Of a stretch of DNA of 42,218 nucleotides, positions 3,397 to 29,473 are shown in pieces (position 1 is the stretch's first letter; the number at the start of each line of letters is the position of its first letter). Origin of the DNA: a virus; the IMG/VR virus record IMGVR_UViG_3300005582_000023, positions 1 through 42,218 of that record; one strand, given 5' to 3'. The notes below the pieces were generated by a model. It made no database searches. It saw only the letters and a program-made list of their open reading frames with translations, and was not told where the DNA came from. Both the position numbers and the translations under genes were made by a program.

Positions 3397-4743
3397 ATGC
3401 CTAGCTTAATCACAGGTTTGCTTAACAGCGAATCAGACGCGTCGTGGCGCTTCACTAACGTCCGCCGTTCTATCAACTACAACTACCCGAACGGCTCCGC
3501 TGTTCTGGTGGCACTGTCCGCACTTCTGAAAGAGGAAGCGGTTAACGACCAAAAGTTTGTCATCTTCGAGAAGCGGTTCGCGGAAGCGAGCACGACTACG
3601 AAGGCGGTCACGACTGGTTTCATCACGACCACCGGAACGAACACAGAGGTAGCCGACCAGATCGACTATGCTGTGGACGCTCTGGCGCGTATCTGTGTCA
3701 CCTCGACTGCACGGTTCCGCGCGGGTAACATCATCCGTATCCGCAACCTCGCGTGCGGCGCAGCTGGTGCTACGCTCGCGAACGTCAACGCCTCGGTAGA
3801 GAGCGTGGTTGATGCAACGCATCTGGAAATCCGGTGGCTGGAGACGGTCACGGATTACTATAAGAACGCGGCCAACGTCGGGATTGAAGTGCTCGTCATC
3901 GGTAATGCGGCCTATGAAGGCCAGACCGGGGCGGCTCTCGTCCCCTACCAGTTGCCCGATGAGCTGTACAACTACCTGCAGATCAGCCGTACTCCGTTCC
4001 AGCTCACTGGCTCGGCGAACAAGACGGCTCTGCGGCAGGACAAGAACGGTCCGTATCCCGACAAAGCGAAGGACGCGATGCTTGCACACGCGACAGAACA
4101 GGAGAAGACCTGGCTGTTCGGCACTCGCGGGATGTATACGGACACCACGACTGGCTTGCCGAAGAAGATGACCGGCGGCATCGAGTGGTACCTGAAACAG
4201 TGGGAACTGGGAACCGTCTACGGCAACAGTGCCACGGCGATCACGGCTGACACTGACGACCAGAAGCGTATCATCAATAACACTGCTGGAACGCTCACGC
4301 TCAAGCAGTGGAACGGCTATCTGGAGCGTCTCTTCCGAGTCACCAGCAATGAGGCCAACGAGAAAGTGGTCCTCTGCGGCAACGGGTTCTTGATGACCCT
4401 CAATGACCTCTATGCGGGTAAAGCCGTGTTCAACTACAACTCGCCTATCAAGGCGGGCCGGTTCGGATACGACTTCGTCTCGCAGGTCACTCCGTGGGGC
4501 ACCATCCACTACAAGACGCACCCGCTGTTCAACCTGAACGCTTACTGGCGTTACGGCGCGTTTGCGCTGGACACGGGCAACCTCAAGTACATGTACCTCA
4601 AAGGTCGTGATACTCAGCTCCTCACCGAGCGCGAGCCGAACAACGCGGACTATCTCGAAGACGAGTGGCTCGGCGAGTGCGGCCTGCAACTCACCCTGCC
4701 GGAGTCCTGCATGATCTTCAAGAACATGCAGACGGCGATCTAA
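3397..4743 (+). CDS. Major capsid protein, DUF5309/SU10-like
   Basis: The 448-residue protein forms the HK97-fold shell. Diagnostic segments are a beta-rich first half in which NIIRIRNL (111-118) is followed by strands ending VLVIGNAAYEGQ (166-176), then YNYLQISRTPFQLTGSANKT (191-210), EKTWLFG near 236-242 and the turn TTTGLPKKMTGGIEWYL (250-266). This order (NYLQI, helix, E..WLFG, TGG) is the hallmark of the SU10-like/DUF5309 capsid family. The start lies 29 nt after the scaffold stop, behind the leader AGATACAACATCAT, with no Shine-Dalgarno sequence. Codon bias creates a 418-residue antisense open frame, which I regard as an artefact. Confidence 0.82.
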   Translation: MPSLITGLLNSESDASWRFTNVRRSINYNYPNGSAVLVALSALLKEEAVNDQKFVIFEKRFAEASTTTKAVTTGFITTTGTNTEVADQIDYAVDALARICVTSTARFRAGNIIRIRNLACGAAGATLANVNASVESVVDATHLEIRWLETVTDYYKNAANVGIEVLVIGNAAYEGQTGAALVPYQLPDELYNYLQISRTPFQLTGSANKTALRQDKNGPYPDKAKDAMLAHATEQEKTWLFGTRGMYTDTTTGLPKKMTGGIEWYLKQWELGTVYGNSATAITADTDDQKRIINNTAGTLTLKQWNGYLERLFRVTSNEANEKVVLCGNGFLMTLNDLYAGKAVFNYNSPIKAGRFGYDFVSQVTPWGTIHYKTHPLFNLNAYWRYGAFALDTGNLKYMYLKGRDTQLLTEREPNNADYLEDEWLGECGLQLTLPESCMIFKNMQTAI

Positions 4744-9583: not shown

Positions 9584-10873
9584 ATGGCTACTTACAATCC
9601 GTTTCTCGATCCAGACTTTGTTAGCAACACAGCTAGACCTAAACTAAGTGGCACCGTGCAGGCTGCACCTCAGCCGCAGCAACCGCAGACTCCAAGCCTA
9701 CCCTCAGGCGTGGGAGAGTTTCTGGCGTCTTATGGGAAAGCCGTTGAAAATATGGGACTCGCTGGGCCGGGTCATGGCCGGAATCAGAACATTGCAGACA
9801 GGGCTGTTATTGAGCGCGAGGCTGCGTTCCAGCAGCGAGCTGCGTTCAACGAAGCCTTTCCTCGTGGACGGGGAGCGGACGGTTTGGTAGAGGTGCCAAA
9901 GATCGACCAAGCGTTGGCGAATAGGGCCTATGCTGCACGGCGTGCCGGTGGGGACCCTCGTCGCCCAGTGGGCGACAACAACCTGAAGATAAACCAGGAA
10001 CAAACCGGCTTCCAGATGTTGCCGGGAAAGACTCCAGACGGAGCCCAGCGTCGGGTGTCAACGTGGGCACCTCCGCTGTCACTGGGCGGAGTGCTGGCTC
10101 CTTCATATCAAGCTCCGACCTATACCGGTCGGGGTGGCGATTTCCGCGACCCGAAAACCGGGGCTGTCAGCGGGTTGATTGACTACCAAGCGCCAGACGG
10201 GGTGAAATATACAGACGCTAATGTCTGGACTGTTGCGCCTATTCCCGAAAGCGATCAACGGGGTCCGGGTATTTACGACTCTAATTTTATGCCTCCCGCT
10301 AAACTAGCTGAAATGCAACACGTTAGAGACCGGGCTACCGGAAAGCAGGGTGGTCCGATAGGCCCGCCAATGACGCGCTTTACTCCTGTGGCTGCTGGAG
10401 GTGCTAAGGCACCTCCGGTTGCCGGAGACCCGGAGGCCGCTGCAATTACCGCGATGCTTGACCGCGAAGTGGCACAGTCAAGGGCGCGCGAAATGGCTGA
10501 AATACAAGCAGCTTTTCAACCGCTGCCGGCTCCAGCTACGGCTCCAGCCACTGTTGGGGATGCTATTACGTCACCTCCTGCCGAAGTGCCGCCTGCAGCA
10601 CCGGCGGCACCGGCGGCAGGCCCTAGACCATTTGAAACCCCCGAGGCTGTCCAAGCACGTCTCATGCTGGAGGAACAGGCAAGGCAGGATCAGCTAGCTG
10701 AACAGGCAAAGAAACAACAAGAAGCTAAGCGACGAGCGGAAGAACAGGTTCGTCTGGCAAAACAGCGCCAGGTAGAAGCGGATCAACGCGCTTTGGAGTT
10801 GTCTAGGCGCAAGGGTAACACTCAGCAGGAACCCTGGCGTCCGGGTGCCCAGCGCGGAAATCCTAACCAATGA
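9584..10873 (+). CDS. Pro/Ala-rich protein with basic coiled-coil C-terminus, probable ejection protein
   Basis: The 429-residue protein contains an N-terminal Pro/Gln-rich segment (about 20-45), a Gly/Arg-rich middle (AFPRGRGADG, RRAGGDPRRPVGD), a Pro/Ala linker (PPAEVPPAAPAAPAAGPRP near 330-350) and, from about residue 355, a long highly charged helix (LMLEEQARQDQLAEQ, KKQQEAKRRAEEQVRLAK) ending in a basic tail. Its stop overlaps the ATG of the polyvalent protein by 4 nt (ATGA), so the two are translationally coupled and probably act together. The basic coiled coil could bind DNA or form the inner core of the virion. There is no recognised family. Confidence 0.5.
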   Translation: MATYNPFLDPDFVSNTARPKLSGTVQAAPQPQQPQTPSLPSGVGEFLASYGKAVENMGLAGPGHGRNQNIADRAVIEREAAFQQRAAFNEAFPRGRGADGLVEVPKIDQALANRAYAARRAGGDPRRPVGDNNLKINQEQTGFQMLPGKTPDGAQRRVSTWAPPLSLGGVLAPSYQAPTYTGRGGDFRDPKTGAVSGLIDYQAPDGVKYTDANVWTVAPIPESDQRGPGIYDSNFMPPAKLAEMQHVRDRATGKQGGPIGPPMTRFTPVAAGGAKAPPVAGDPEAAAITAMLDREVAQSRAREMAEIQAAFQPLPAPATAPATVGDAITSPPAEVPPAAPAAPAAGPRPFETPEAVQARLMLEEQARQDQLAEQAKKQQEAKRRAEEQVRLAKQRQVEADQRALELSRRKGNTQQEPWRPGAQRGNPNQ

Positions 10874-13800
10874 ACCAACCCTTCACCTACGGTGAACTCT
10901 TAGCGAAGCACGCTAAGGTCTCGCAAGACCCCGAGTTCAAAGACATCTCTCTGCCGGATTACGCGGCAGCGATGAACGAAATCACGGGGTCGCAGAACTA
11001 CGACCAAGGCTTAAAGGACGACTTTGTCCGGCGTGCCTCTCACAAGGTCGATGAGGCGATTGACTGGACAGGTCTCCCACAGGGCTTCCAGAGTGTGGGT
11101 GAAGGGTTAACCTCAATGCTCGGCGGTGGGCCGGAGTATCAGGAGGCCGTAGGACACGCGTTCCGAGGATTACCGAGGACGTTGGGTGAGATCGGTGTCG
11201 GCGTGGGTGCGGCTGCTTTAGCGACTGCGGCCGCTCCGGTGGCAATCCCGGCGGGTGGTATCGCGGCTGGCGGTATCGCGTTAGGGACGATGGCGGGGTT
11301 GACCGGAGCAAGAACCTACGGCGAGACGGGGAGTGTGCCACAGGCCGGTGTCTCGGCTGCTACGATGCTCGCGGGTATGAAAGCGAGTCAGATGGTCGGA
11401 CAGCCGATTCTTCGTGCGATGGGAGCACCGACAGCAGCGGAGTTTGCAGGCAAGGTTGCACCGGAGTTCGCTGCTAAGGTCGGAGCCAGTTTCGCGCCGA
11501 AAGAGATCGGTGAGATGCTCGTCGCCAGCAACTACCCGCAGCAGATCGCAAGGATAACCGGCATGATAGGGTCTCAAGTTCCAGTGAACGAGTTAGGTGC
11601 CGGCATCAGTAGACGTATGCAAGAAGGTGAGTGGCGTATGCCTACGGGTCCTGAGTTTGTTGCGTCCACCGCAAGTTTGCTACCCTTCCTCGGGTATGAC
11701 ATGGTGCGAGGCGTCCAGAACCCGATGCGGACGTTCAACAAGCAGGTTAAGCCGGCGTTGCAGGATAGCTTTGTCCAGCGCGGCGTGGCCGATTATGTCG
11801 CCAAGCACGGTGAGATGCCGCCGGACAACCAGATTGCTGCGCTCGCGCGTGAGGCTGAGATTCTCCCACCGCTGACAGGGCCAAACTTCAAGATCGGTGA
11901 TGATGGTAGGTTTGAGGCTAAGTTTAACTCCACGGCTGAGGCTACAGAATGGGCACAATCCCACGCTTCTCGGTTTGATGGGTTCGACCTAGAAGCGAGG
12001 AATGGGATTACCTATCTCAAGGTGAAGCCGAAAGATGTGGCGGACTTCTTGGAGTTGACGGGGAATAATGAGAACAATAGCTTCTTGGAGAGTCGGAATA
12101 AGAGCTTCACTTATCAAGACGCTGGCGCTGAGAACGTCATGGCTACGGTCATGAAATACAAGCAGCGTTTCATGGATGCCGTTAATGAGGGCAAACCGGA
12201 GGGACAGCGGATTAGCGAGATAGACTTGGTGGATGACGAGCTAGTTCGGCATATCTCGGATGCTCACCGGCAGTTCGAGCAAGAGCAGATGGCAGCGAAG
12301 ACTAAGGCACGTCCTACGCAGGATGACATCATTAACCGGGCGATTAAGATTAACACGGTTGAGACGGAGTTTGGTCGCGATCTGGCTGTAAAGATCGACC
12401 CGGCGTACTTGGCGATGGAGCAGGAGTCAGTCGCGAGGGAGAACCAGCGCGCTGCGGACTTGGCTGCGGACGCCGAGGCTGTGCAGTTGATGAACAGCGA
12501 CCCGGCGATGAAGGCAAAGGGCGAGTTCGCGTCGAATTGGTATGAGAAGGAGCGTGGGGTTGGTGCGCGGAAAGAGACTGTCATGGAGAGTGGGCAACAC
12601 GGGAGGACGACCACAGCAACGGTGGGTCAGTCCACGCCAGAGCAGTTGGCGATTGACAAGACAATCGCGACTAAGGAGGGTCTCTTGCGTGGTATTCCGA
12701 AGGATGACTTGTTTGCTCAAAAAGCCGCTGACGACTTGAGGGCCGAAATCACGGCGTTGCAGGAGAAGCGGGCGACGTTGGGTGACCCCGAGAAGGTCGA
12801 GACGGTGGATGAGAAGGTCACTTACAACGAGGACGGCGACCCGGTTAATGAGAAGGGCGAGGTCATCGATGAGAACGCCGACGAAGTCATCACTGGCGGG
12901 AGCTATGGTGCCAACTCAGGTGTGCGTCCTGCGACTCCTGGAGTCAGCGAGGCTTTGATACGTGCTGCGGTGAAGTACCCTGGACAAGTGATCATTAACC
13001 CTGAAGGTATGCCGAGAGACCCGTCAGAGTTAGCCTTCACGTCCTATCTGCAAGGCACTCGCAAGCGGGCGGAAGCAGCTTACAAGGCGCAGGATGCTCA
13101 GGCGAAGTCGACGGGAATTGTCCAACGCTTCGGTGCGGATGAAGCCTCGGCTAAAGCGTACGCGGAGCAGAGACAGACTGGTCGGTCAGAGGCTGAAGTC
13201 GCGGCGAATGTAAAGTTCGAGGCTGTGAAGGACAAGAACGGTGAATGGGCTGTTCGAGCACTTGACCAAAATGCCATTCGTTCCTTCGAGGGCAAGTGGC
13301 AGACGGAGCGTGGCGATTGGGCTGACACCGAGATGGAGTCGATGATCGCGCAGTTTGTCGGTAAGCTGGAAGAAGGAGCACAGGTGGAGGTTGCCGCCGA
13401 ACGTGGCGTCCATGACCTCAATGACATCCGTGACCCTGCGATCAAGGTCATGCGGTATCAGGCGACTGTGAATAATGTTGCCTCTGCGATGAACGACGGA
13501 CTGTTGCATCGTGAGCTGATTCGCGTTCTAAATCTGGAGCGTAACCGTAAGCAAGACTCCGAGCTGAAGAAAGCCAAGGCGCGTGTGCTGCAATACATCG
13601 ACTTCATTCGGAAGGGTGGGAATCTGACGTGGAAGATCGTCCATAAGCCGGCGATGAGGGAAGTCTTTCGGACTACGGACAGGGCTGAGGCCGAGCAGTA
13701 CATCCAAGATCGTCTCACTCAAGCAGACGTCGGCAAGACGATTGGGTCTCGCGGCGAAGGCTTAACGGTGAGAGATTATCAGTTCACCACCGAGAGGGCG

Positions 13801-16800
13801 GAGAACAACTACAACGTGTTGGAAGAAGCCATCATGAACCAGTTCGGCGATCAAGTCTCGGTGGGATATAAGGTGATGGAGAAGCCGAAGGACGTGGTGG
13901 AAGTGCCCGGTAAAGGTGGCAAAAGCGGACGGCGTGGCTTCTTGACTGTTGAATTGCAGGGTGACCTCGAAGGATTTAACAAGCAGTTGTTGGCGTTGTC
14001 GGCTAGAACCGGAGTCGACTATGGCGGCTTTGTCAACGAGGCTAATGCTGATCGCAGTGGTCGGCTCAACGAGCGCCGAACCAACGGATTGTCTCCAGCC
14101 GAAGAGATACTCGCAGCGTTGCAAGCTGTTGGAAAGCAGTTCCAAGACCCGCGGAAGCTGTACGAGCGTCCGAAGGGTGATTTCGGATTCTTGCCTAAGC
14201 CGTATTGGGAGCTTAGTCGTGACGAGAAGGGGAGGGTCACAGCTCACAGGCTTGGCTTGAACGACCCAGAGACAGGTGCCTACATCCCGGCGCACGAGGC
14301 TGTGAAGACAGTCAAACGAGGTATGGACCTCGCGGTGCCGGCTGGCCCCGGTGTCATGGTCAAGCAGCGTGACGGGACGATGAAGGAGCACAAAGGGAAT
14401 TGGGCTACCTTGGTCGATGACATATTCAAATCCGAGGGCGTTGTCTCTTTCGCTGACTTTGTGAGCGTGATGAAACAAAGTCTGGAGAAGGATAGGAACG
14501 CTCAGACGGGGCCGCAGATTGATCACTACAATCGCGTTCTCGACATGCTGTTGAATAAGGGGAATGAGCGTAACTGGGCACCTAACATCCCTGTCGGTGT
14601 CGCTATGGCGAAAGAACTTGGACACGCAGGGCCGGACGGACTCATTAATGGCGTCTTCGGCTGGTATAACCATTCAAGGGATACGCTCCAAAGCACAGGT
14701 ATGCTGCTCTCGCCGTACTATGTGCATCCGAGGACGGGCAAGGTGTATCAGATGTCCGCCTTAGAGTTCTTGCCGCATCTTATCCACGAGGCGACTCATG
14801 GGAATGTCGCTCATGGCTTTGACGTCGACCCGGTGCTCAAAGCTCAGGGTATCGCCTTGGTGCTGCATCTTAAGAAGCAGCTCAAGTTGGATTCCGCGTG
14901 GGCTTCCATCACCGGAGCCGAGCCTCGGACTATCAGTGCGCTGAGAGACCCTAACCGGGAGGACTACGTCAGCCTGCAAGAGTTAGCCGCTGATCTGTTC
15001 ACAGACGAAAGTCTCATGCGCACTTTGCGTGGGATGAGGGATGACCCGACTTTGGGGGGTAACCCAAAGCCGATGAACAACTTGTTCAATCGCGTGATGG
15101 ACTGGATTAAAAGCTACCTGCTGAAGGTGTTCCCGTCGGGTAAAGGCGAGAGCGTGGTTGATGGCGCGTCTCTCTATGACCGGTTGGCTAACTATACGGC
15201 ACGCGCTATGGAAGTCTCGGATAGCCGAGTCCGCATGGAGTATAAGGGTGATGTATACTCCGCCATTGCGAAGGAAATCTTCGGGTCTAGTAGGGTCGAC
15301 CTACTCGGTTCGCGGAGGCCAGAGCCTTCGGAGCGCACTGGGGATAGCGGAGTAGGCCGCGTTGTGGGCGGGAAAGAGCCGGTCAAAACGGCTGGTCTCG
15401 GCTGGTCGCGCACGATTGGGGATGCCACGAGGCCGAAGACGGCGGAGGATTATACTCAATACGCGAAGGCTCGAAACGTGCAGACTAAGGCTGAACAAGC
15501 AGCCGCCGACGCGGAGCGCGCTAGGATTGAAGCGGACCCGAACAGGCCACGGCGTTTGGTTAAGGTGAAGCAGGTGGAGCCAACTCCCTCTGAGGAACTA
15601 GCGAAGCAGAGGACGGACGCGTTGAGGGCTGAGTTGCAGAAGGAGTATCCTGATAGTAAGAAGTGGACTATCATTGTTACTCCCCCTGAGAAGTCCAAAT
15701 CAGGACTCGTTTCCTGGGAGGGCGGTAGGGTTGAGGTTCGGTCCAAGACGGAGTATCAGCCTATACCGACTGTGGACCTAAAGGGCGATAACGAGTTGCC
15801 GGGTGTGATACGTGCTCAAGGAAAGAAGACGATACCGGAGTCTAGTAAAAACATTGAGGAGGATAATGGACCTCAGTTGATCGACCAGCCGTTGCAGTTC
15901 GCGCAGACAATAGTTCAAGAAGGACCAGCAGGTGAGCGGGTAGCCTATACGCGAGTTGAGCGTCCGTCGGGCGAGTTCAAGATGGGAGCTTACAGAGAAA
16001 TGATATCGTCGGTGGAAGGCACCGAGCCGGTTCCGGCAGGGCCGAAAAGTGTGCCGCCGGCGGAGAAGGACCGTGGGCCGGGATTGTCTGCCGAGGATGA
16101 GGCGAAGGTGAAGGCAAGGTGGCCGATGGGGACGAGTGAGGTGGAAGGTGGATTGCGGAGTTACATTGGGGCTAACGCTAATGTATTGAATAGTTCTAGG
16201 CTCACAGCCGAAACCATGCTCAAGGCGGGGCGGTCTCCAGAAGAAGTTCGTCAAGTGACTGGTTGGTTCAAAGGTAAGTATGATCAGAAAATGCGGTGGG
16301 AAGTGCCGGATAACTCGTCGAAATTGACCGGATTCTGGGAGAGTTTGTCAGAAAAGAAGCTCCTGGGAGCAAACGAGAGTCGAAAGCTTTCTGAGGTCTT
16401 TGACCATCCGGCTTTATACCAAGCTTATCCAGAACTGCGTGATGTTAATGTAACCAAACAACGCGGTTTCCTTGACTTCATGGGCGCAGTTCAAGGGTGG
16501 TATAATAGTGATACTAATACGATTAACGTTACCCCTAACGCTAAGGATGCTCGAAGCACTCTGCTGCACGAGATTCAACATTGGATTCAAACAAAAGAAG
16601 GGTTTGCGAAAGGGTCTAACACAGAGACGGCCATGAAAGGTTTGACACTTCAGCAAAAGCAAGCCGTCATGGACCGGATACAGGCTAAGGCTCCAGAGTT
16701 GATTAAAGCCTTGGAAGACAGGGTGCGTAGGCTAGGAAAAGACATAGACCTACTTCAACAGGTTGACCCTGTGCGGTTTGCTATGACTACCACCTTAATT

Positions 16801-19800
16801 CAAGAAGCTAACGCGAGGTTTAACAGTGCTGTGCAAGCAAAAACAGCTTCTAAGACGCCTGAAACAGAAGCGGCCGTAACGGAGGCTTACAAGGAATACG
16901 TGAAAAGACAAGACGAGCTTACGGCTGTTCTTGGTATACCTAAAAATGAAAAACTAGCCCACTGGGACTATTTTTACCACGCTCAGTTTGCAAAAAGTCT
17001 TGAAGCCTTTCAACAAACGATGCGAACGAAACAAATCGAGGGCGAGCTAGATTTGTTGGATCAAAACGAGATGGTGTCTACCATGCACACCAGTGAGGAG
17101 GCTTTTGCGAAAGCAGTTAAAGCTTTTGATCTGTCTCATGAGTTGTATAGCCGCGTTGCTGGAGAGATTGAATCTCGTGATGTTCAGGCGCGCCGGGACA
17201 TGAGCTTAGACGAATTGGATAAAGTGGGTCCGTATTCAAGTGAGGCTATTGACGTTAAAGATTCGATTATGCTCGAAAGCCGAGGTCTGCTTCAAGCTTT
17301 ACCTGTTCGTCCGGTTATCGGACAAAAAGGGCCGTGGCTTACGCCAGAGAACCAAGGACTGTTGAAGTCCCTTATGGAAGGGTCTAATCGAGTGGTTGAC
17401 GCGTTTATGGGAACCGGTAAGATGAGCGTAGCCGCACGGCTTCTCGGCTTTCAAGGACAAGTTGTGGCTAACGAGATACACGGTGTACCGGCTTCTGTCT
17501 TGTCTCGCTTGACTCCAGAGTTAGTCACTCAAGCAGAGCAGTTAGCTAAGCAACTCGAACCTTTAGTGAGCAAGCCTAAGGAATACAACGCTTTAGTTGC
17601 GGCTCACCCTGATAAAGAACTAGCCCGCTTTGTGGGAAGTCAAGCTAACTATATGGGACGTTCGCTTGATAAGAGTCCTGTTCATGTGCCTGCTTCAAAC
17701 CAAGCTTATCAATTACGGTCCTTAGGCAAACGCCTCAAGGCTTGGTTGGATAGTGAGATTTCGGTTACCCAAGGAGACGGTTTCAAACTGGCAGCAGAAG
17801 CTCAAGCCGGTGATTTTGTGATCTTTGACCCGCCTTACGTGGGTACTGATACTTATCGAGTGAATAGGCAGACTGACGGGTTGACAGAAATAGCTCAAGC
17901 AGTGGGCAATGGGGCTAAGGTGCTGTACTTTAATGCTTATTCGCCTGAACTCGTGAAAGGCTTGAAAGACCTTGGACTTAAGGTAAAGCGCGAACAGATA
18001 GGAACCGTGGATACGGTAGTGGCTCATAGTGCTATTGAGACACAAGCTCTCGAAAGCCGTGGCGGGCTTGGTCAAGAACCTGTGCCAGCTACCCAGTTTA
18101 CTGTGATGACAAAAGACGGTCCAATAGAGGCTAAGTCGTTTGGGAGAACCGTATTCTCTGAACAAGCCACAGGCAAAGGAGCACGTATTGACAACCCAAA
18201 CTGGAAGCCTGAAAGTGCTCCAGCCGAGCTAACTCCAGCGGCCGTGAAAGTAAAAGACGGATGGCTTGTGGGTTGGCTTAAGCCTGACGGCTCTTTTGTT
18301 ACCAGCAATAACCTTCCGCGACCTACTTGGGAAGACGCTAGTTTCGAGATTGGTATTCGAGATACAAACGCTCTCGAAAGCCGTGGACCTATCACTGTCC
18401 CGGAAGTCACCCGCGCGCTCAAGCACGGTACTACCGCGATGATCGACAAGCGGGAGGAGAGTGGCCGGCTGTGGTTCAAAGGCGAACCGTTCATCCTTGG
18501 GTCGGTGCGCCCGCAGAAAGAGGGCGAGTATGGCTGGTGGTCTCTTAGCACGAAGGACTTGCAGAGGATGGCGGAGGAGTTGGGGACTAAGGAAGACCTG
18601 TTCGCGAATCAGGTGAAGAGCACGCCGCAGATTACCTCGGCCTATCCAACTTTGGTCGAGGCGTTGGCTTACCAGGGTATGTCGAAGCAAGAGGCACGGA
18701 AAGGGGCGTTGTTGATCGGGAGGTTTTCGACAGTTTTTAGGGCTGTACCCGGCTACGGGGCAACTGTGGTAGGTCGATCAACTTCAAAAGATTCGCTAGG
18801 TTTTGCTTGGCCGAGTGAAGGGAAAGTTGGACTGAACCCAGAGGCTATTGCTGACAGTGCTAATACGACAGCCGGTCGGTTTATGCTTCTGCGTGAAGTC
18901 TTCATCCATGAAATGTTTCACCCAGCAGACGTTAAAGGTACGGCGCTTGCTGGTATCTTTGACCAGCTGAAAACGGCAGACGCCCGACGAGACGTGTTAA
19001 TTGCTTCGTCTTATCTTAACAAAGGCGAGTTTCAAGGTCGAACGAGACAGGAGGCTATTGAAGACTCAATGGAGTTTTCGGCCGACCTAGCAGCTAATTT
19101 GGTCCCGTCTTTATTGTCCGGTAACCCGACAGCTGTTATGTATAACGCGGCAACCTTGTTAGGTCCCGAGGTTCAACAAGCATTGTTTATGGAAGGCATA
19201 ATGCACCGTAAAGCTATGGAGATTTTCTCTAGTAAGCTGGCCGAGAAGGGACAGGCTGAGTGGGCAGTTCCTCTGACTAAAGAGATTCAGGCTTACATGA
19301 AAAGCTTTGACGAGATTCAGCGGGATACGGAGATGTTCCATGTCATGCGCGGCTTATGGCCGGATGCGTTTATGCCTGAGGTGATGGAGGTGGCTAGCCA
19401 GGTAGAGACCAACGGAAGACGTCAACTGTACGCTGCGAGTAAAGAAACCCTGCAAGAGTCCGTTCTTGAAAGTCGCGGGATGCTTAGGGCCGAGATCGGT
19501 CTATCAAACAACGCGAAGTTTTCCTGGTGGAACAAGACCCTCGCAAACTTCAACCGTCTGGCCGATCAGTTCCCTATCCTTCGACCGCACTGGGACATGC
19601 TCCACTCGGCGTCAGCTCAAGCGCAAAACGCCACGATGGATTTGAAACTCATCATGGCGGGTCAGTACCAAGCGGGCAAGTACAAGAGCGATGCGAGGTC
19701 GAAGCGTTGGCGGCAGTTTAACATGACGCCTCGGTTGCTCGAAGCTCACGACAAGCTGGTGATGTTGGCGAATCAGATGGGTGATACGGCGAACGTTCGG

Positions 19801-22539
19801 ATGACGCCTCTTGAGCAGAATACGTTCTTGGAGCGGTCGGGCAAGTTGACTGACCCGGCTGACCGTGCACTCGTGCTGGAGGTCTTCAACGCGCAACTGG
19901 CACAGAATGAAATAGTTGGCGGGATGATTAACAAAGCGGAGCGACACCGGGATGATGTCATGCTGGCGAGGTTGGCCTCGAAGCGCGGTGCTGGCACGGT
20001 TTCACTAGAGCAAGCTAGAGCACAAGGGAAGCTGGTGGGAGACTGGGCGGAGGCTAGTTTCGTGGGGGATATCGTCACGGCGAGTGACCTAGCGAACCGG
20101 ATGGCTACGGAGATACCCCAGGATGTGAGGAACGAAATGGTGGAGTTGGCTCAAGCCTTGGTCACACCGAGGATGGAGGCTTATAATACGAGGCAGCGTG
20201 GTATCGGATACTGGATGCCAGAGCGCCGGTTCGGCCAGTGGGGTCTTTACTATAAGGACCAGAATGGAGACGTGCAACGGCATTACTTCCAGCAAGCTAA
20301 AGACCTTGAGACGTTCAAAGCACGCGCGAGGGTTAAGGATGATGACGTTATCAAGCTGATCGGCCCTGCCGAGTCTGAGCCGAACTTCGGTGCTAACCCG
20401 GCGCTGTTCGCAGCCTTAGACGAGGCGCAGGCAAAGCAGGTCGCGGCAGTTCGTAAGCATCTTGGTGACGCCGCAGCGGACTTCTTGCAGAAAGAGGGCC
20501 ACTTCACGGCGCATGTTGTAGGTAACCTGCAGGCTGCTAACCCGACGTCGACCTCGCTCAAGCGCACCTTCGGAGCGACTCGCCAGTTCCTCACGATGAG
20601 CGATGTCCAGCAGCAGTATATTGAAGCTGCGGTTAATTCGATCAAGAATCGCACGGTCCAAGCGGAGAACGAGTTGATCTTGGGGGATCAGAGTTTCGCT
20701 ATGCAACCCGAATCGAAGATTCTGGTTCGTCAACACGTCGACCAGTTCCTCAAGAAGGATTCGGAGTTTGGACGGAAGGTGCAGATGGCGAACTTCGTCT
20801 ACTTCATGGGAGGCAACATCTCGAGTATGGTGCTAGAACCCTTCCAACAGTTGATGGCTCTGGCTCCCGTCTTGACGCACAATGGTGCCGGCCTCGCTGG
20901 TGGGTATAAGTTGATAGCTGACGCTAACGCGCTGTGGGCGAAAGCGAAGATGTCGGGGTCGTTCGGTAACCCCGATTATGACGCCGCGATGAAACAATGG
21001 AGGCAGCAAGGTGACGCGGACAATGGTATCTACGCTGAGTTGAATCACAATGAAGACTTGAATCTGGTGAATACTATCCGCCAGAGCGGTGGCTTCTCGC
21101 AGTTCTCTCCGTATGACTTGTTGAAGAATAAAGTCTACGCGCTGGCGAACTTTGCCACGAAGTTCTATCTTCGAGTGCCGGCTTATAACAGCGAGATCGC
21201 GTTGCTGGCTTCTTACAAGCTGTTGAGGTCACAAGGATTGCCACATGAAGAAGCGACCAAGCAGGCGGTGTTCTTGAAAGAGGGCGCGATGTTCGGTGGT
21301 GGCAAGCGCAACCGGCCTGTGGGACTATTCGGCTTTAATAGGACGGCGGCACAGGTGATGAGTTCTCTGCAAGGTTACAGTCTCGGCATGACCTCCCTCA
21401 TGGGGCAACTCATTCGCGAGTCTCTCGGTGGCAAGGGTAGTGGGTTGAGCCCGGCTCAGATCACACAGTCTCGGAAGGCTGCCGCACAGATGCTGATGAC
21501 GCAGTTCGCTGCGGCTGGTGCCCTCGGTATGCCGTTCATGGCGGCAGCCCTCACAGGGCTACAAAAGATGTTCCCTGGGACGAATCCTGAACAAGCGACG
21601 CGGGACTTCTTGGACGACTTCGATAAAGAGGACAAAGCGATGGGTGGGGTGGTAGGGACGTTCCTAGCGAAGGGTCTCCCAGCGTTGATGAGTAACGGGC
21701 CGGATATGTCCTCGCGCTTTGCCCTTGGTGGAGTGCTCGGGGTAAACCCGTACAATGGGTGGACCCTAGCGAACCTAGCTGGCCCCTCTGTCAGCCTTGT
21801 GACGAACATTTTCAACGCAGGGCGTGAGGCCGCTATGACAGGTGACCCGGCAGCGTTGAAACCAATGATGCCGATAGGGTTGCAGAAGATGTACGATGCT
21901 GCGACACAAGGGTCGTCGTTTAAGGACGCAAAAGGACGTATGTTGGCGGAGGATTTGACGGGGACCGAGCAAGTTGCACGGTTTGCTGGCTTTACTCCGA
22001 ATAGAGTAGCCGAGACGAGAGATACCACAAGGTTGGCCAAGATTAACGAATCCGCAGCAAGGGAGCGCACCACGCGCCTTGCTAACCAGTTGGCCGACCT
22101 ATACCAAGCCGGAGAAGTTGAGAGAGTGAGGGAGAAGATTCTGGACCTAGAACCGCACGAACAATCCACAATGGTGCAAGCAGTCGCCTCCCGGTTAGAA
22201 CAGAAGACGATGCCTGTCGACCCGAGAACGATTGGTTCTCGGATGAGTTTAAGGTCTCAACAGGAATTGTTCCGCCTGATGCAGACCGGGAGAGTGCAAC
22301 TACCCACGCAGCAGGAAAGGATGATGCTACATGGGCAGGTTGCGATGGGACTAGCTATACCTGGGACACAACCGCCTTCCAACCGCTCTATGGGTAGAGC
22401 CGCCGCTATTGACATGCTGCAACAACAGTCGCCGGCTTTGTCTAAGGAGGCGGCGTCCCTGCTGCTGGACCGGCACTCGAGGTTGAGCCCCCAAGCTCGG
22501 TCTGATATGTTTCCGGGAGATACAGCCACCGGGCTATGA
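10870..22539 (+). CDS. Large polyvalent protein: three zincin motifs, embedded Dam methyltransferase, repeated LESRG tags
   Basis: This 3889-residue protein takes up over a quarter of the window. It matches the 'large polyvalent protein' class: multi-domain phage proteins thought to be packaged and injected with the genome to act early in the host. Visible in order: an N-terminal helical part; a Gly/Ala-rich hydrophobic segment at about 107-145 that could insert in a membrane; a long region without recognisable motifs; zincin 1 with HEATH at 1306-1310 and a downstream SLQELAADLF; zincin 2 with HEIQH at 1900-1904, followed by EGFAKGS and ESRDVQARRDMS as in polyvalent metallopeptidases; a DNA adenine methyltransferase core with motif I DAFMGTG (2177-2183) and catalytic DPPY (2320-2323); zincin 3 with HEMFH (2680-2684) and a later EFSAD; and a helical C-terminus resembling an LPD38-type region (MGGNISSMVLEPFQQLMALA). 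The pentapeptide LESRG occurs at 2135, 2394, 2502 and 2866. Parts of the gene between about 16400 and 19350 are markedly poorer in G+C than the rest. The gene is coupled to the preceding one by an ATGA overlap, and its 3' end overlaps the convergent helicase gene by 98 nt. The host targets are unknown; roles in protecting or modifying the injected DNA and cleaving host proteins are inferred. Confidence 0.85.
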   Translation: MNQPFTYGELLAKHAKVSQDPEFKDISLPDYAAAMNEITGSQNYDQGLKDDFVRRASHKVDEAIDWTGLPQGFQSVGEGLTSMLGGGPEYQEAVGHAFRGLPRTLGEIGVGVGAAALATAAAPVAIPAGGIAAGGIALGTMAGLTGARTYGETGSVPQAGVSAATMLAGMKASQMVGQPILRAMGAPTAAEFAGKVAPEFAAKVGASFAPKEIGEMLVASNYPQQIARITGMIGSQVPVNELGAGISRRMQEGEWRMPTGPEFVASTASLLPFLGYDMVRGVQNPMRTFNKQVKPALQDSFVQRGVADYVAKHGEMPPDNQIAALAREAEILPPLTGPNFKIGDDGRFEAKFNSTAEATEWAQSHASRFDGFDLEARNGITYLKVKPKDVADFLELTGNNENNSFLESRNKSFTYQDAGAENVMATVMKYKQRFMDAVNEGKPEGQRISEIDLVDDELVRHISDAHRQFEQEQMAAKTKARPTQDDIINRAIKINTVETEFGRDLAVKIDPAYLAMEQESVARENQRAADLAADAEAVQLMNSDPAMKAKGEFASNWYEKERGVGARKETVMESGQHGRTTTATVGQSTPEQLAIDKTIATKEGLLRGIPKDDLFAQKAADDLRAEITALQEKRATLGDPEKVETVDEKVTYNEDGDPVNEKGEVIDENADEVITGGSYGANSGVRPATPGVSEALIRAAVKYPGQVIINPEGMPRDPSELAFTSYLQGTRKRAEAAYKAQDAQAKSTGIVQRFGADEASAKAYAEQRQTGRSEAEVAANVKFEAVKDKNGEWAVRALDQNAIRSFEGKWQTERGDWADTEMESMIAQFVGKLEEGAQVEVAAERGVHDLNDIRDPAIKVMRYQATVNNVASAMNDGLLHRELIRVLNLERNRKQDSELKKAKARVLQYIDFIRKGGNLTWKIVHKPAMREVFRTTDRAEAEQYIQDRLTQADVGKTIGSRGEGLTVRDYQFTTERAENNYNVLEEAIMNQFGDQVSVGYKVMEKPKDVVEVPGKGGKSGRRGFLTVELQGDLEGFNKQLLALSARTGVDYGGFVNEANADRSGRLNERRTNGLSPAEEILAALQAVGKQFQDPRKLYERPKGDFGFLPKPYWELSRDEKGRVTAHRLGLNDPETGAYIPAHEAVKTVKRGMDLAVPAGPGVMVKQRDGTMKEHKGNWATLVDDIFKSEGVVSFADFVSVMKQSLEKDRNAQTGPQIDHYNRVLDMLLNKGNERNWAPNIPVGVAMAKELGHAGPDGLINGVFGWYNHSRDTLQSTGMLLSPYYVHPRTGKVYQMSALEFLPHLIHEATHGNVAHGFDVDPVLKAQGIALVLHLKKQLKLDSAWASITGAEPRTISALRDPNREDYVSLQELAADLFTDESLMRTLRGMRDDPTLGGNPKPMNNLFNRVMDWIKSYLLKVFPSGKGESVVDGASLYDRLANYTARAMEVSDSRVRMEYKGDVYSAIAKEIFGSSRVDLLGSRRPEPSERTGDSGVGRVVGGKEPVKTAGLGWSRTIGDATRPKTAEDYTQYAKARNVQTKAEQAAADAERARIEADPNRPRRLVKVKQVEPTPSEELAKQRTDALRAELQKEYPDSKKWTIIVTPPEKSKSGLVSWEGGRVEVRSKTEYQPIPTVDLKGDNELPGVIRAQGKKTIPESSKNIEEDNGPQLIDQPLQFAQTIVQEGPAGERVAYTRVERPSGEFKMGAYREMISSVEGTEPVPAGPKSVPPAEKDRGPGLSAEDEAKVKARWPMGTSEVEGGLRSYIGANANVLNSSRLTAETMLKAGRSPEEVRQVTGWFKGKYDQKMRWEVPDNSSKLTGFWESLSEKKLLGANESRKLSEVFDHPALYQAYPELRDVNVTKQRGFLDFMGAVQGWYNSDTNTINVTPNAKDARSTLLHEIQHWIQTKEGFAKGSNTETAMKGLTLQQKQAVMDRIQAKAPELIKALEDRVRRLGKDIDLLQQVDPVRFAMTTTLIQEANARFNSAVQAKTASKTPETEAAVTEAYKEYVKRQDELTAVLGIPKNEKLAHWDYFYHAQFAKSLEAFQQTMRTKQIEGELDLLDQNEMVSTMHTSEEAFAKAVKAFDLSHELYSRVAGEIESRDVQARRDMSLDELDKVGPYSSEAIDVKDSIMLESRGLLQALPVRPVIGQKGPWLTPENQGLLKSLMEGSNRVVDAFMGTGKMSVAARLLGFQGQVVANEIHGVPASVLSRLTPELVTQAEQLAKQLEPLVSKPKEYNALVAAHPDKELARFVGSQANYMGRSLDKSPVHVPASNQAYQLRSLGKRLKAWLDSEISVTQGDGFKLAAEAQAGDFVIFDPPYVGTDTYRVNRQTDGLTEIAQAVGNGAKVLYFNAYSPELVKGLKDLGLKVKREQIGTVDTVVAHSAIETQALESRGGLGQEPVPATQFTVMTKDGPIEAKSFGRTVFSEQATGKGARIDNPNWKPESAPAELTPAAVKVKDGWLVGWLKPDGSFVTSNNLPRPTWEDASFEIGIRDTNALESRGPITVPEVTRALKHGTTAMIDKREESGRLWFKGEPFILGSVRPQKEGEYGWWSLSTKDLQRMAEELGTKEDLFANQVKSTPQITSAYPTLVEALAYQGMSKQEARKGALLIGRFSTVFRAVPGYGATVVGRSTSKDSLGFAWPSEGKVGLNPEAIADSANTTAGRFMLLREVFIHEMFHPADVKGTALAGIFDQLKTADARRDVLIASSYLNKGEFQGRTRQEAIEDSMEFSADLAANLVPSLLSGNPTAVMYNAATLLGPEVQQALFMEGIMHRKAMEIFSSKLAEKGQAEWAVPLTKEIQAYMKSFDEIQRDTEMFHVMRGLWPDAFMPEVMEVASQVETNGRRQLYAASKETLQESVLESRGMLRAEIGLSNNAKFSWWNKTLANFNRLADQFPILRPHWDMLHSASAQAQNATMDLKLIMAGQYQAGKYKSDARSKRWRQFNMTPRLLEAHDKLVMLANQMGDTANVRMTPLEQNTFLERSGKLTDPADRALVLEVFNAQLAQNEIVGGMINKAERHRDDVMLARLASKRGAGTVSLEQARAQGKLVGDWAEASFVGDIVTASDLANRMATEIPQDVRNEMVELAQALVTPRMEAYNTRQRGIGYWMPERRFGQWGLYYKDQNGDVQRHYFQQAKDLETFKARARVKDDDVIKLIGPAESEPNFGANPALFAALDEAQAKQVAAVRKHLGDAAADFLQKEGHFTAHVVGNLQAANPTSTSLKRTFGATRQFLTMSDVQQQYIEAAVNSIKNRTVQAENELILGDQSFAMQPESKILVRQHVDQFLKKDSEFGRKVQMANFVYFMGGNISSMVLEPFQQLMALAPVLTHNGAGLAGGYKLIADANALWAKAKMSGSFGNPDYDAAMKQWRQQGDADNGIYAELNHNEDLNLVNTIRQSGGFSQFSPYDLLKNKVYALANFATKFYLRVPAYNSEIALLASYKLLRSQGLPHEEATKQAVFLKEGAMFGGGKRNRPVGLFGFNRTAAQVMSSLQGYSLGMTSLMGQLIRESLGGKGSGLSPAQITQSRKAAAQMLMTQFAAAGALGMPFMAAALTGLQKMFPGTNPEQATRDFLDDFDKEDKAMGGVVGTFLAKGLPALMSNGPDMSSRFALGGVLGVNPYNGWTLANLAGPSVSLVTNIFNAGREAAMTGDPAALKPMMPIGLQKMYDAATQGSSFKDAKGRMLAEDLTGTEQVARFAGFTPNRVAETRDTTRLAKINESAARERTTRLANQLADLYQAGEVERVREKILDLEPHEQSTMVQAVASRLEQKTMPVDPRTIGSRMSLRSQQELFRLMQTGRVQLPTQQERMMLHGQVAMGLAIPGTQPPSNRSMGRAAAIDMLQQQSPALSKEAASLLLDRHSRLSPQARSDMFPGDTATGL
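17269..19479 (+). repeat. Four LESRG pentapeptide-coding repeats between polyvalent protein modules
   Basis: The codons for LESRG start at 17272, 18049, 18373 and 19465. Copies 2 and 3 are preceded by Ala codons and share an exact 17-bp DNA block (GCTCTCGAAAGCCGTGG); copy 1 differs slightly and copy 4 uses other codons (CTTGAAAGTCGC). A degenerate LESRN lies at residues 406-410. The four copies delimit, in order, zincin module 2, the methyltransferase, a roughly 100-residue module and zincin module 3. They could be linker scars of module insertion or protease sites. Confidence 0.6.
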
Positions 22540-28075: not shown

Positions 28076-29473
28076 TTAGAGGAACTTTACATTCCCGTTA
28101 GTTAGTTTGTGATAGTGAGCGCGGACGTTGGTGACAAGGTGTGGATAGTGAGCGTCGGAGGACTCGAAGGCTATGGGTAACAGGCCGAAGGTGATAGCAG
28201 GGATGGTAGATGACCCGCGACCCGCGAAGGGGTCGAGGACAGTCTGGCCTTTCATACATACGGCGTCGTAGAGCCACGTCCACAAGCCGGCAGGCTTAGC
28301 GAAGGGGTGGCCGTAGGTGGTGCGGGCTTCGAGGTTGTCGCCAGTCCAGTAGTTCATCGGCTGTTGTTTTTGCAATGTAGCCATGCCTTTACGGAGGACC
28401 ATTGCTACCTCTGTGCGTTTAGTGAAGTTGAACTGCGCTGCGCCGTTCATACATGGATGGGTCTTGATCCAGTAAAGGGGCCACTCTTGCATGGAGAAAC
28501 CGGTAGCGAGGGCCAAGGTTTTTTGTAACTCCCATACTTCCGTGTCCGTCCAGATCACGCAGAAGCTCTTGTCTTTCAAGACGCGGTACATAGCACGAAG
28601 CCACGGGCCGAAGTTCTTCCTGTTATCCATAGCATCGTGCTCCGCGGCGACAGAGGAGACGTCCATCTGTCCGAAGTTAGCCATGTCGATACCATACGGC
28701 CAGTCGGTGATGATGTTGTCAACGCTCTCGGCTGGGAGTTCGTTCATGAGGTGGAGGCAGTCACCCTGCTTGACGATGCGGGTGAGCGGGACTTCGAGCG
28801 GTGGTGGCAGGGCAGGAGTGGTGCCGTCAGGGAGTTTGACCACAGCCGTGGGCTGATTTGGCAGGACGACGCCAGAGCGTTTGGCCGCGAACTCAAGCAT
28901 CTTCTTTTCGGCTTCGTCTTCGAGGACTTTCAGATACGCTTTGTAGGCTTCTGCGAACGTCTCGGCTTCGAGGATCGTCTTGGTGCCTTTGCGGAGTTCA
29001 TCAGCGACACGGAGCATATGGGAGGTGTGACCCTTGTCGTACCCGACCAGTTTGCCGGTCTCTTTCTGTCCCCATTCGGTACCCACAGCGAGGTTCTCCT
29101 TGCTCTTGAGTTGATGAATTTCGTAGATAGACAGGACACGTTCCTGCCACGTCATAGCCTTGCGACCAAGGTTCTCCATGAGTTCAATTTCCTTGGCGAC
29201 ATGTTCGGGGACTTCTTCTCTCCACACGAAGCCGGGTTTCTCAGGATCACAGGTGGTGCCGTGGTAGAGCGTAGTGTAGTCATTGGCAGAAAGCCACGCG
29301 TAGCGACGGCCACCAGCCATAAGGGTGAGGACGCCGGCGATGTCTTGCAGGACGATGGGTTGGATGAGACCGATGTCCGCGATGGAGTCGAGGTCGGTGA
29401 GTGAGCCGTAGTCCTTGCGGAGACGGGGTGCGATGACGATGGATGAGAGTGGGATGGAGTCGATGGTGGGCAT
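28076..29473 (-). CDS. ParB-like nuclease / DNA methyltransferase fusion
   Basis: The 465-residue protein has two domains. Residues 1-190 form a ParB/Srx-like part, with GLIQPIVLQD (35-44) and the LMAGGRRYAW motif (51-60), and a helix-turn-helix type region around 130-160 (GQKETGKLVGYDKGHTSHM). Residues about 232-465 form a beta-class amino-methyltransferase: the catalytic motif is DWPY (257-260, in place of DPPY) preceded by QGDCLHLM, a HPFAKP segment (389-394) precedes motif I DPFAGRG (414-420), and the order IV before I is that of beta-class enzymes such as M.CcrM-type N6-adenine or N4-cytosine methylases. Such fusions occur in phages and may mark phage DNA against host restriction. Its start is only 15 nt from a strong terminator. 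Confidence 0.85.
   Translation of the reverse strand: MPTIDSIPLSSIVIAPRLRKDYGSLTDLDSIADIGLIQPIVLQDIAGVLTLMAGGRRYAWLSANDYTTLYHGTTCDPEKPGFVWREEVPEHVAKEIELMENLGRKAMTWQERVLSIYEIHQLKSKENLAVGTEWGQKETGKLVGYDKGHTSHMLRVADELRKGTKTILEAETFAEAYKAYLKVLEDEAEKKMLEFAAKRSGVVLPNQPTAVVKLPDGTTPALPPPLEVPLTRIVKQGDCLHLMNELPAESVDNIITDWPYGIDMANFGQMDVSSVAAEHDAMDNRKNFGPWLRAMYRVLKDKSFCVIWTDTEVWELQKTLALATGFSMQEWPLYWIKTHPCMNGAAQFNFTKRTEVAMVLRKGMATLQKQQPMNYWTGDNLEARTTYGHPFAKPAGLWTWLYDAVCMKGQTVLDPFAGRGSSTIPAITFGLLPIAFESSDAHYPHLVTNVRAHYHKLTNGNVKFL

Follow-up and report, generated by a model that had tools for sequence, protein, structure and literature searches.

Polyvalent proteins of phages carry one to five zincins per chain, and some are fused to a DNA adenine methylase (Iyer et al., 2017; PMC5512222). 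The zincin is reported as the commonest domain of these proteins (PMC5512222). Zincins were proposed to release the other domains of the chain, and since 2017 this release has been likened to the polyproteins of eukaryotic RNA viruses (PMC5512222); no cleavage site named for polyvalent proteins was found in that paper. According to work cited there, the virion RNA polymerase of phage N4, which bears a zincin, is packaged uncut. The large DarB protein of phage P1, which includes a DNA methylase, is carried in the phage head and shields the incoming DNA (PMC9024508, PMC5512222).

The sequence analyzed here, a virus record referred to as the window, spans 42,218 bases and encodes a giant protein of 3889 residues. 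The ATG of the giant gene overlaps the stop codon of the gene upstream. The gene stands in the context of a structural gene block (portal, capsid), and its product has a virion-type PLxRFG C-terminal domain. The features of the giant gene are as follows.

10870..22539, + strand: giant polyvalent-protein gene, 3889 aa, open reading frame without interruption
11182..11310, + strand: Gly/Ala-rich hydrophobic segment by hydropathy, aa 105-147, possibly a membrane or ejection segment
14437..15249, + strand: probable zincin 1 by motifs and profile alignment, aa 1190-1460, HEATH at 1306, candidate Glu E1371
16168..17271, + strand: LPD23 (aa 1767-1819) and zincin 2 to aa 2134, HEIQH at 1900, Glu 2099
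17272..17286, + strand: border tag 1, LESRG, aa 2135-2139, end of the confident zincin-2 fold
17287..18048, + strand: Dam/DpnM-type (D12) adenine methylase, aa 2140-2393, motif I DAFMGTG at 2177, motif IV DPPY at 2320
18049..18063, + strand: border tag 2, LESRG, aa 2394-2398
18064..18372, + strand: small module of about 100 aa, aa 2399-2501
18373..18387, + strand: border tag 3, LESRG, aa 2502-2506
18388..19464, + strand: plausible zincin 3, aa 2507-2865, HEMFH at 2680, candidate Glu E2735
19465..19479, + strand: border tag 4, LESRG, aa 2866-2870
20755..22167, + strand: C-terminal PLxRFG/tail-700 phage structural domain (NF032893), aa 3296-3766, NCBIfam E 2e-33

An earlier note on this DNA had described an intact frame of 3889 residues with HExxH motifs at 1306, 1900 and 2680, DAFMGTG at 2177 and DPPY at 2320, and its coordinates proved right; the two methylase motifs do lie between zincins 2 and 3. 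The acidic third-ligand candidates that it had seen after each HExxH are likewise present, namely E1371 (LQELAAD), E2099 (GEIESRD) and E2735 (SMEFSAD). From composition about 0.05 HExxH motifs would be expected instead of three, and more than one was obtained in none of 500 shuffles.

Since it combines several unrelated enzymatic domains (zincin 2 and the Dam-type methylase) with an LPD domain (LPD23), the giant protein is a member of the published class of phage polyvalent proteins. It shares with them the giant multidomain chain, the zincins, the LPD domain and an adenine methylase, and self-processing was proposed for that class (PMC5512222). As the combination of zincin and adenine methylase has been published, it alone is not new. 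New here are the Dam-type methylase, which replaces the DarB-type module, and the identical border tags; the novelty rests on the tags and not on the domain list. While the methylases described in PMC5512222 mostly belong to an EcoKI/TaqI-like LPD36-methylase-helicase module, that of the window is of the Dam/D12 type, and peptides such as the LESRG found at four borders here are not described in PMC5512222. P1 DarB resembles the window protein in its large size and in having a DNA methylase; its methylase, however, is of the gamma type (NPPF) and is joined by a helicase and LPD36, none of which was found in the window protein. In the giants of the Pseudomonas phages F116, AF and 8P, LPD23 is likewise followed by an HExQH zincin, and those of F116 and 8P also have a C-terminal region in common with the window protein. 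The three giants add a second HExxH about 190-200 aa further on, whereas the last two zincins of the window protein are 780 aa apart, with the methylase and the small module between them, and an extra zincin 1 lies upstream.

No close relatives of the phage were found by megablast, by scanning viral sequences with the whole protein, the methylase, the C-terminus, zincin 1, zincin 3 or the primase, or by a portal search in 40 LPD23 records. Within the giant protein only zincin 2 and the C-terminal domain have relatives, and a search for relatives of the small module (aa 2399-2501) returned none. The phage encodes an SU10-type major capsid protein (window 3397-4743; PF17236, E 5.6e-25), and also a DNA polymerase, an ATP-dependent ligase, a primase and a Sak4-like recombinase.

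Zincin 2 is the best supported of the three putative peptidases. Pfam identified LPD23 (PF18838) at aa 1767-1819 with an E-value of 5e-11, followed by a sub-threshold match to the DUF6782 metallopeptidase over the second HExxH. In an alignment of 70 related sequences both histidines and the catalytic Glu of HExxH were invariant, and the distal Glu (GExExR) was conserved in at least 90%; this is as expected for a zinc peptidase whose third ligand is Glu. A long coiled insert lies between HEIQH 1900 and Glu 2099. The profile match and the conservation across about 70 relatives bear out the earlier note for this segment, and from its sequence zincin 2 is clearly assignable as an LPD23-linked polyvalent-protein metallopeptidase. 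The LPD23-zincin 2 block is common in phages and prophages; 42 annotated phage records contain it, most of them from Pseudomonas, as do over 500 stretches of IMG/VR and 98 genome stretches. Among the 50 PDB matches listed by Foldseek for an AlphaFold model of aa 1755-2400 there was no zincin, so that in the giant protein it is conservation that carries the zincin assignments.

Zincins 1 and 3 had no homologues in any collection searched, and sequence searches against solved structures gave nothing. Aligned with other polyvalent zincins by hhalign, zincin 1 brought HExxH and the Glu helix into register at 49% (shuffle maximum 0.8%), and zincin 3 did so at 9.7% (shuffle maximum 3.2%); both exceed the shuffles, but the probabilities are low. 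A single-sequence AlphaFold model of aa 2398-2874 was too poor for use (pLDDT 38). Thus, while the earlier note had called three zincins and a methylase, zincin 2 and the Dam-type methylase are clear, zincin 1 is probable on its sequence, and zincin 3 is only plausible.

For the methylase, a Pfam scan of the giant protein gave a sub-threshold MethyltransfD12 match at aa 2170-2328, and PF02086 exceeded the cut-off together with neighboring pieces (22.5 bits) in a search within the phage's own record. An independent D12 profile, for which T4 Dam was combined with 29 D12 proteins from other genomes, aligned the giant protein from motif I through DPPY (E 9.4e-6, Z = 5000) and placed its frame second among the 5,235 ORFs of the collected loci. 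With the AlphaFold model of aa 1755-2400, DpnM ranked second among the PDB matches listed by Foldseek (probability 0.99), and many E. coli Dam chains were among the best matches, with E-values from 0.02 upward and probabilities mostly above 0.9. The methylase part of this model was built with almost no relatives, and the Foldseek E-values are individually weak, but the family is consistent (DpnM/Dam). Motif I, the recognition region and DPPY stand in alpha-group order, and their order and spacing are like those of Dam/DpnM (D12) enzymes; unlike these, the window methylase is embedded in a giant chain. By hmmscan neither LPD36 nor a helicase family was found, and the motif is DPPY, not NPP[YF]. 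On profile and Foldseek grounds the methylase is therefore of the Dam/DpnM (D12) type and not of the DarB type usual in polyvalent proteins, and the earlier note's methylase call held. Across 50 virus records (49 LPD23 records and the phage's own), a D12 match in a giant frame was found in the own record only, and 38 genomes with LPD23 loci gave zero D12 matches in frames above 869 aa.

Avoidance of GATC was considered as a clue to the methylation target and rejected; there are 126 GATC sites against 184 expected, yet most palindromic tetramers are under-represented likewise. A second methylase gene, on the minus strand at window 28076-29473, combines a ParB-like N-terminal domain with a beta-type N6/N4 methylase (PF01555, E 1.9e-12; motif DWPY), so that the phage carries two unrelated methylases.

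The peptide LESRG recurs at aa 2135, 2394, 2502 and 2866, after zincin 2, the methylase, the small module and zincin 3, respectively, which the earlier note had missed. None of 3000 local shuffles contained any 5-mer with four dispersed copies, and the recurrence reached a Poisson score of 10. The flanking residues are restricted (M/A/A/V before the tag, L/L/I/L two after). The wider flanks are unrelated, and their identity of 0.10 rules out that the tags are relics of a whole-domain duplication. The four copies differ at third codon positions only; all differences are synonymous and all four glycine codons are used, an argument for the importance of the peptide itself. In the AlphaFold model, confidence is high to about aa 2134, tag 1 starts at 2135, and confidence drops from 2139; in the same model the final methylase strand ends near aa 2386, eight residues ahead of tag 2. 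LESRG was absent from all other window ORFs of at least 60 aa, and from the N-terminus to the end of zincin 2 no copy occurs, with a variant LESRN at aa 406.

Repeated tags were also searched for in 94 non-redundant ORFs of at least 1000 aa with an LPD23-type zincin. The search scored dispersed tags of six residues, of which no more than one could vary, and shuffles reached the threshold in 1%. Besides zincin motifs and duplicated domains, the search returned five ILKASGAVP-like tags in locus L013, three copies of DFSAS in L141, and the LESRG of the window; KFSxRE, present three times in L158, fell slightly under the threshold. A strict repeated tag in every giant can be rejected, as only about 4 of the 94 exceeded shuffles when zincin motifs and duplicated domains were set aside. 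In addition, YQAS occurs five times in L067, and PDIRYSRAK three times in L040, adjoining both ART-PolyVal copies, with two of the three inside a duplicated stretch. The tags of L013 and L067 employ both serine codon families, which suggests that the peptide is under constraint. The pattern [DEN][IV]R[YF]S had 16 occurrences where 1.4 were expected, and none in reversed sequences; it follows more than one kind of domain end. [FY]S was also enriched just past the zincin (17 against 4.4 expected), but we give this little weight because it overlaps the zincin's own last strand (DAIVxFS). Purely as a description, the tags of the giants have in common a core Ser preceded by F, Y, A or E.

Several single frames among these loci are of interest on their own. 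The L013 giant (L013:2-14305, 4768 aa) has, in addition to its five tags, DIRYS beside an ART domain and LPD23. In L040:3659-16558 two tandem ART-PolyVal domains are bordered by the three PDIRYSRAK peptides. L051:1819-9324 contains both DIRFSESRGI and PASESRGV, so that two types of tag, DIR[YF]S and ESRG, coincide in a single peptide; this ORF also contains a CTCTC repeat run. In L085:5078-12964 three near-identical stretches end in NRQYMQKGG..NVR[HY]S, a long repeated border sequence. L019:263-18214 is a frame of 5984 aa with five HExxH motifs, and L111:1403-18178 one of 5592 aa with at least three LPD23-type zincin copies.

Embedded zincins and four LESRG copies at module borders are features of a polyprotein. 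We infer that the LESRG peptides are the sites at which a polyprotein is cut, the embedded zincins being the probable proteases. In the reading that we prefer, to which we assign a probability of about 0.48, the giant is a polyvalent polyprotein that is packaged and delivered, its zincins cut at LESRG, and the freed methylase modifies phage DNA. The protein would travel in the virion and enter the host together with the DNA. Zincin 2 would be the first candidate for the protease, because its fold ends at tag 1; in the simplest reading the protease would cut directly behind its own domain and wherever that peptide recurs. Three modules (methylase, small module, zincin 3) would thereby be separated from the structural parts. 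If all four tags were cut, the products would be an N-terminal part containing zincins 1 and 2 (about 2137 aa), the methylase (about 259 aa), the small module (about 108 aa), zincin 3 (about 364 aa) and the C-terminal structural part (about 1020 aa). The freed Dam-type methylase could then methylate adenines in the phage DNA ahead of attack by host restriction enzymes. This last step follows from the Dam-type assignment and the precedent of P1 DarB, by analogy with which injection and methylation of the incoming phage DNA are plausible. Repeated tags in other giants (ILKASG, DFSAS, KFSxRE, YQAS, PDIRYSRAK) count for self-cleavage. Counting against it are the uncut N4 virion RNA polymerase, the closest zincin-2 relative (L006), which is without LESRG, the lack of any tag N-terminal of the zincin 2 end, and the restriction of strict tags to about 4 of 94 giants.

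LESRG could instead be a recombination linker, a short repeated DNA segment that allowed a foreign cassette, reaching from zincin 2 through the methylase and small module to zincin 3, to be inserted and reshuffled, without a proteolytic role and with the modules acting joined. Indeed, the four copies resemble each other at the DNA level beyond what codon usage would produce (P about 0.005); tags 2 and 3, which flank the small module, have 17 nt in common. The stretch from LPD23-zincin 2 through the methylase to the small module (window 16168-18372) also forms an island with a GC3 of 0.40-0.45, against 0.62-0.68 over most of the remaining giant gene and 0.57 in zincin 3, and by this composition it looks like a recently acquired cassette. 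The excess likeness and the acquired look keep the linker a live rival. Nevertheless, the variable positions of the tags are synonymous third positions only, the mixture of both serine codon families in the L013 and L067 tags would be needless for a copied DNA linker, and the tags are located at fold ends, so we consider this explanation unlikely.

The giant could also work uncut, with the zincins as effectors that cleave host defense proteins after injection while the methylase protects the phage DNA. Zincin effectors are known in other conflict systems and are one option given in PMC5512222, and three different zincins would fit several targets. Four identical border peptides, however, would be left unexplained, and no target-recognition feature was found for zincin 1 or zincin 3; we consider this quite improbable. 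The earlier note had offered both roles for the peptidases, processing of the protein itself and cutting of host defense proteins; the former is favored over the latter because the repeated LESRG marks module borders, and nothing found points to a specific host target. That the tags are real cleavage sites cut by another protease, either a prohead protease or a host enzyme, agrees with their arrangement and with the processing of structural proteins by head proteases in other phages (PMC9024508), but seems very improbable, as no prohead protease was recognized in the structural genes tested and no other window ORF of at least 60 aa contains LESRG.

Beyond the window, polyvalent proteins of phages might be true polyproteins, each with its own border cleavage peptide (LESRG in the window; ILKASG, YQAS, DIRYSR or KFS.RE in others) matched to an embedded zincin; new modules would arrive as tag-bearing cassettes, and protease and site would co-diverge. 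We propose this generalization only tentatively. Border peptides that recur within a protein and are specific to it pinpoint cut positions that can be tested, and they offer a means of delimiting modules in poorly annotated giants. If the reading as a self-cleaving polyprotein is true, it would explain how many unrelated enzymes are delivered from one chain, and one of the enzymes delivered would be a Dam-type methylase that could blunt restriction.
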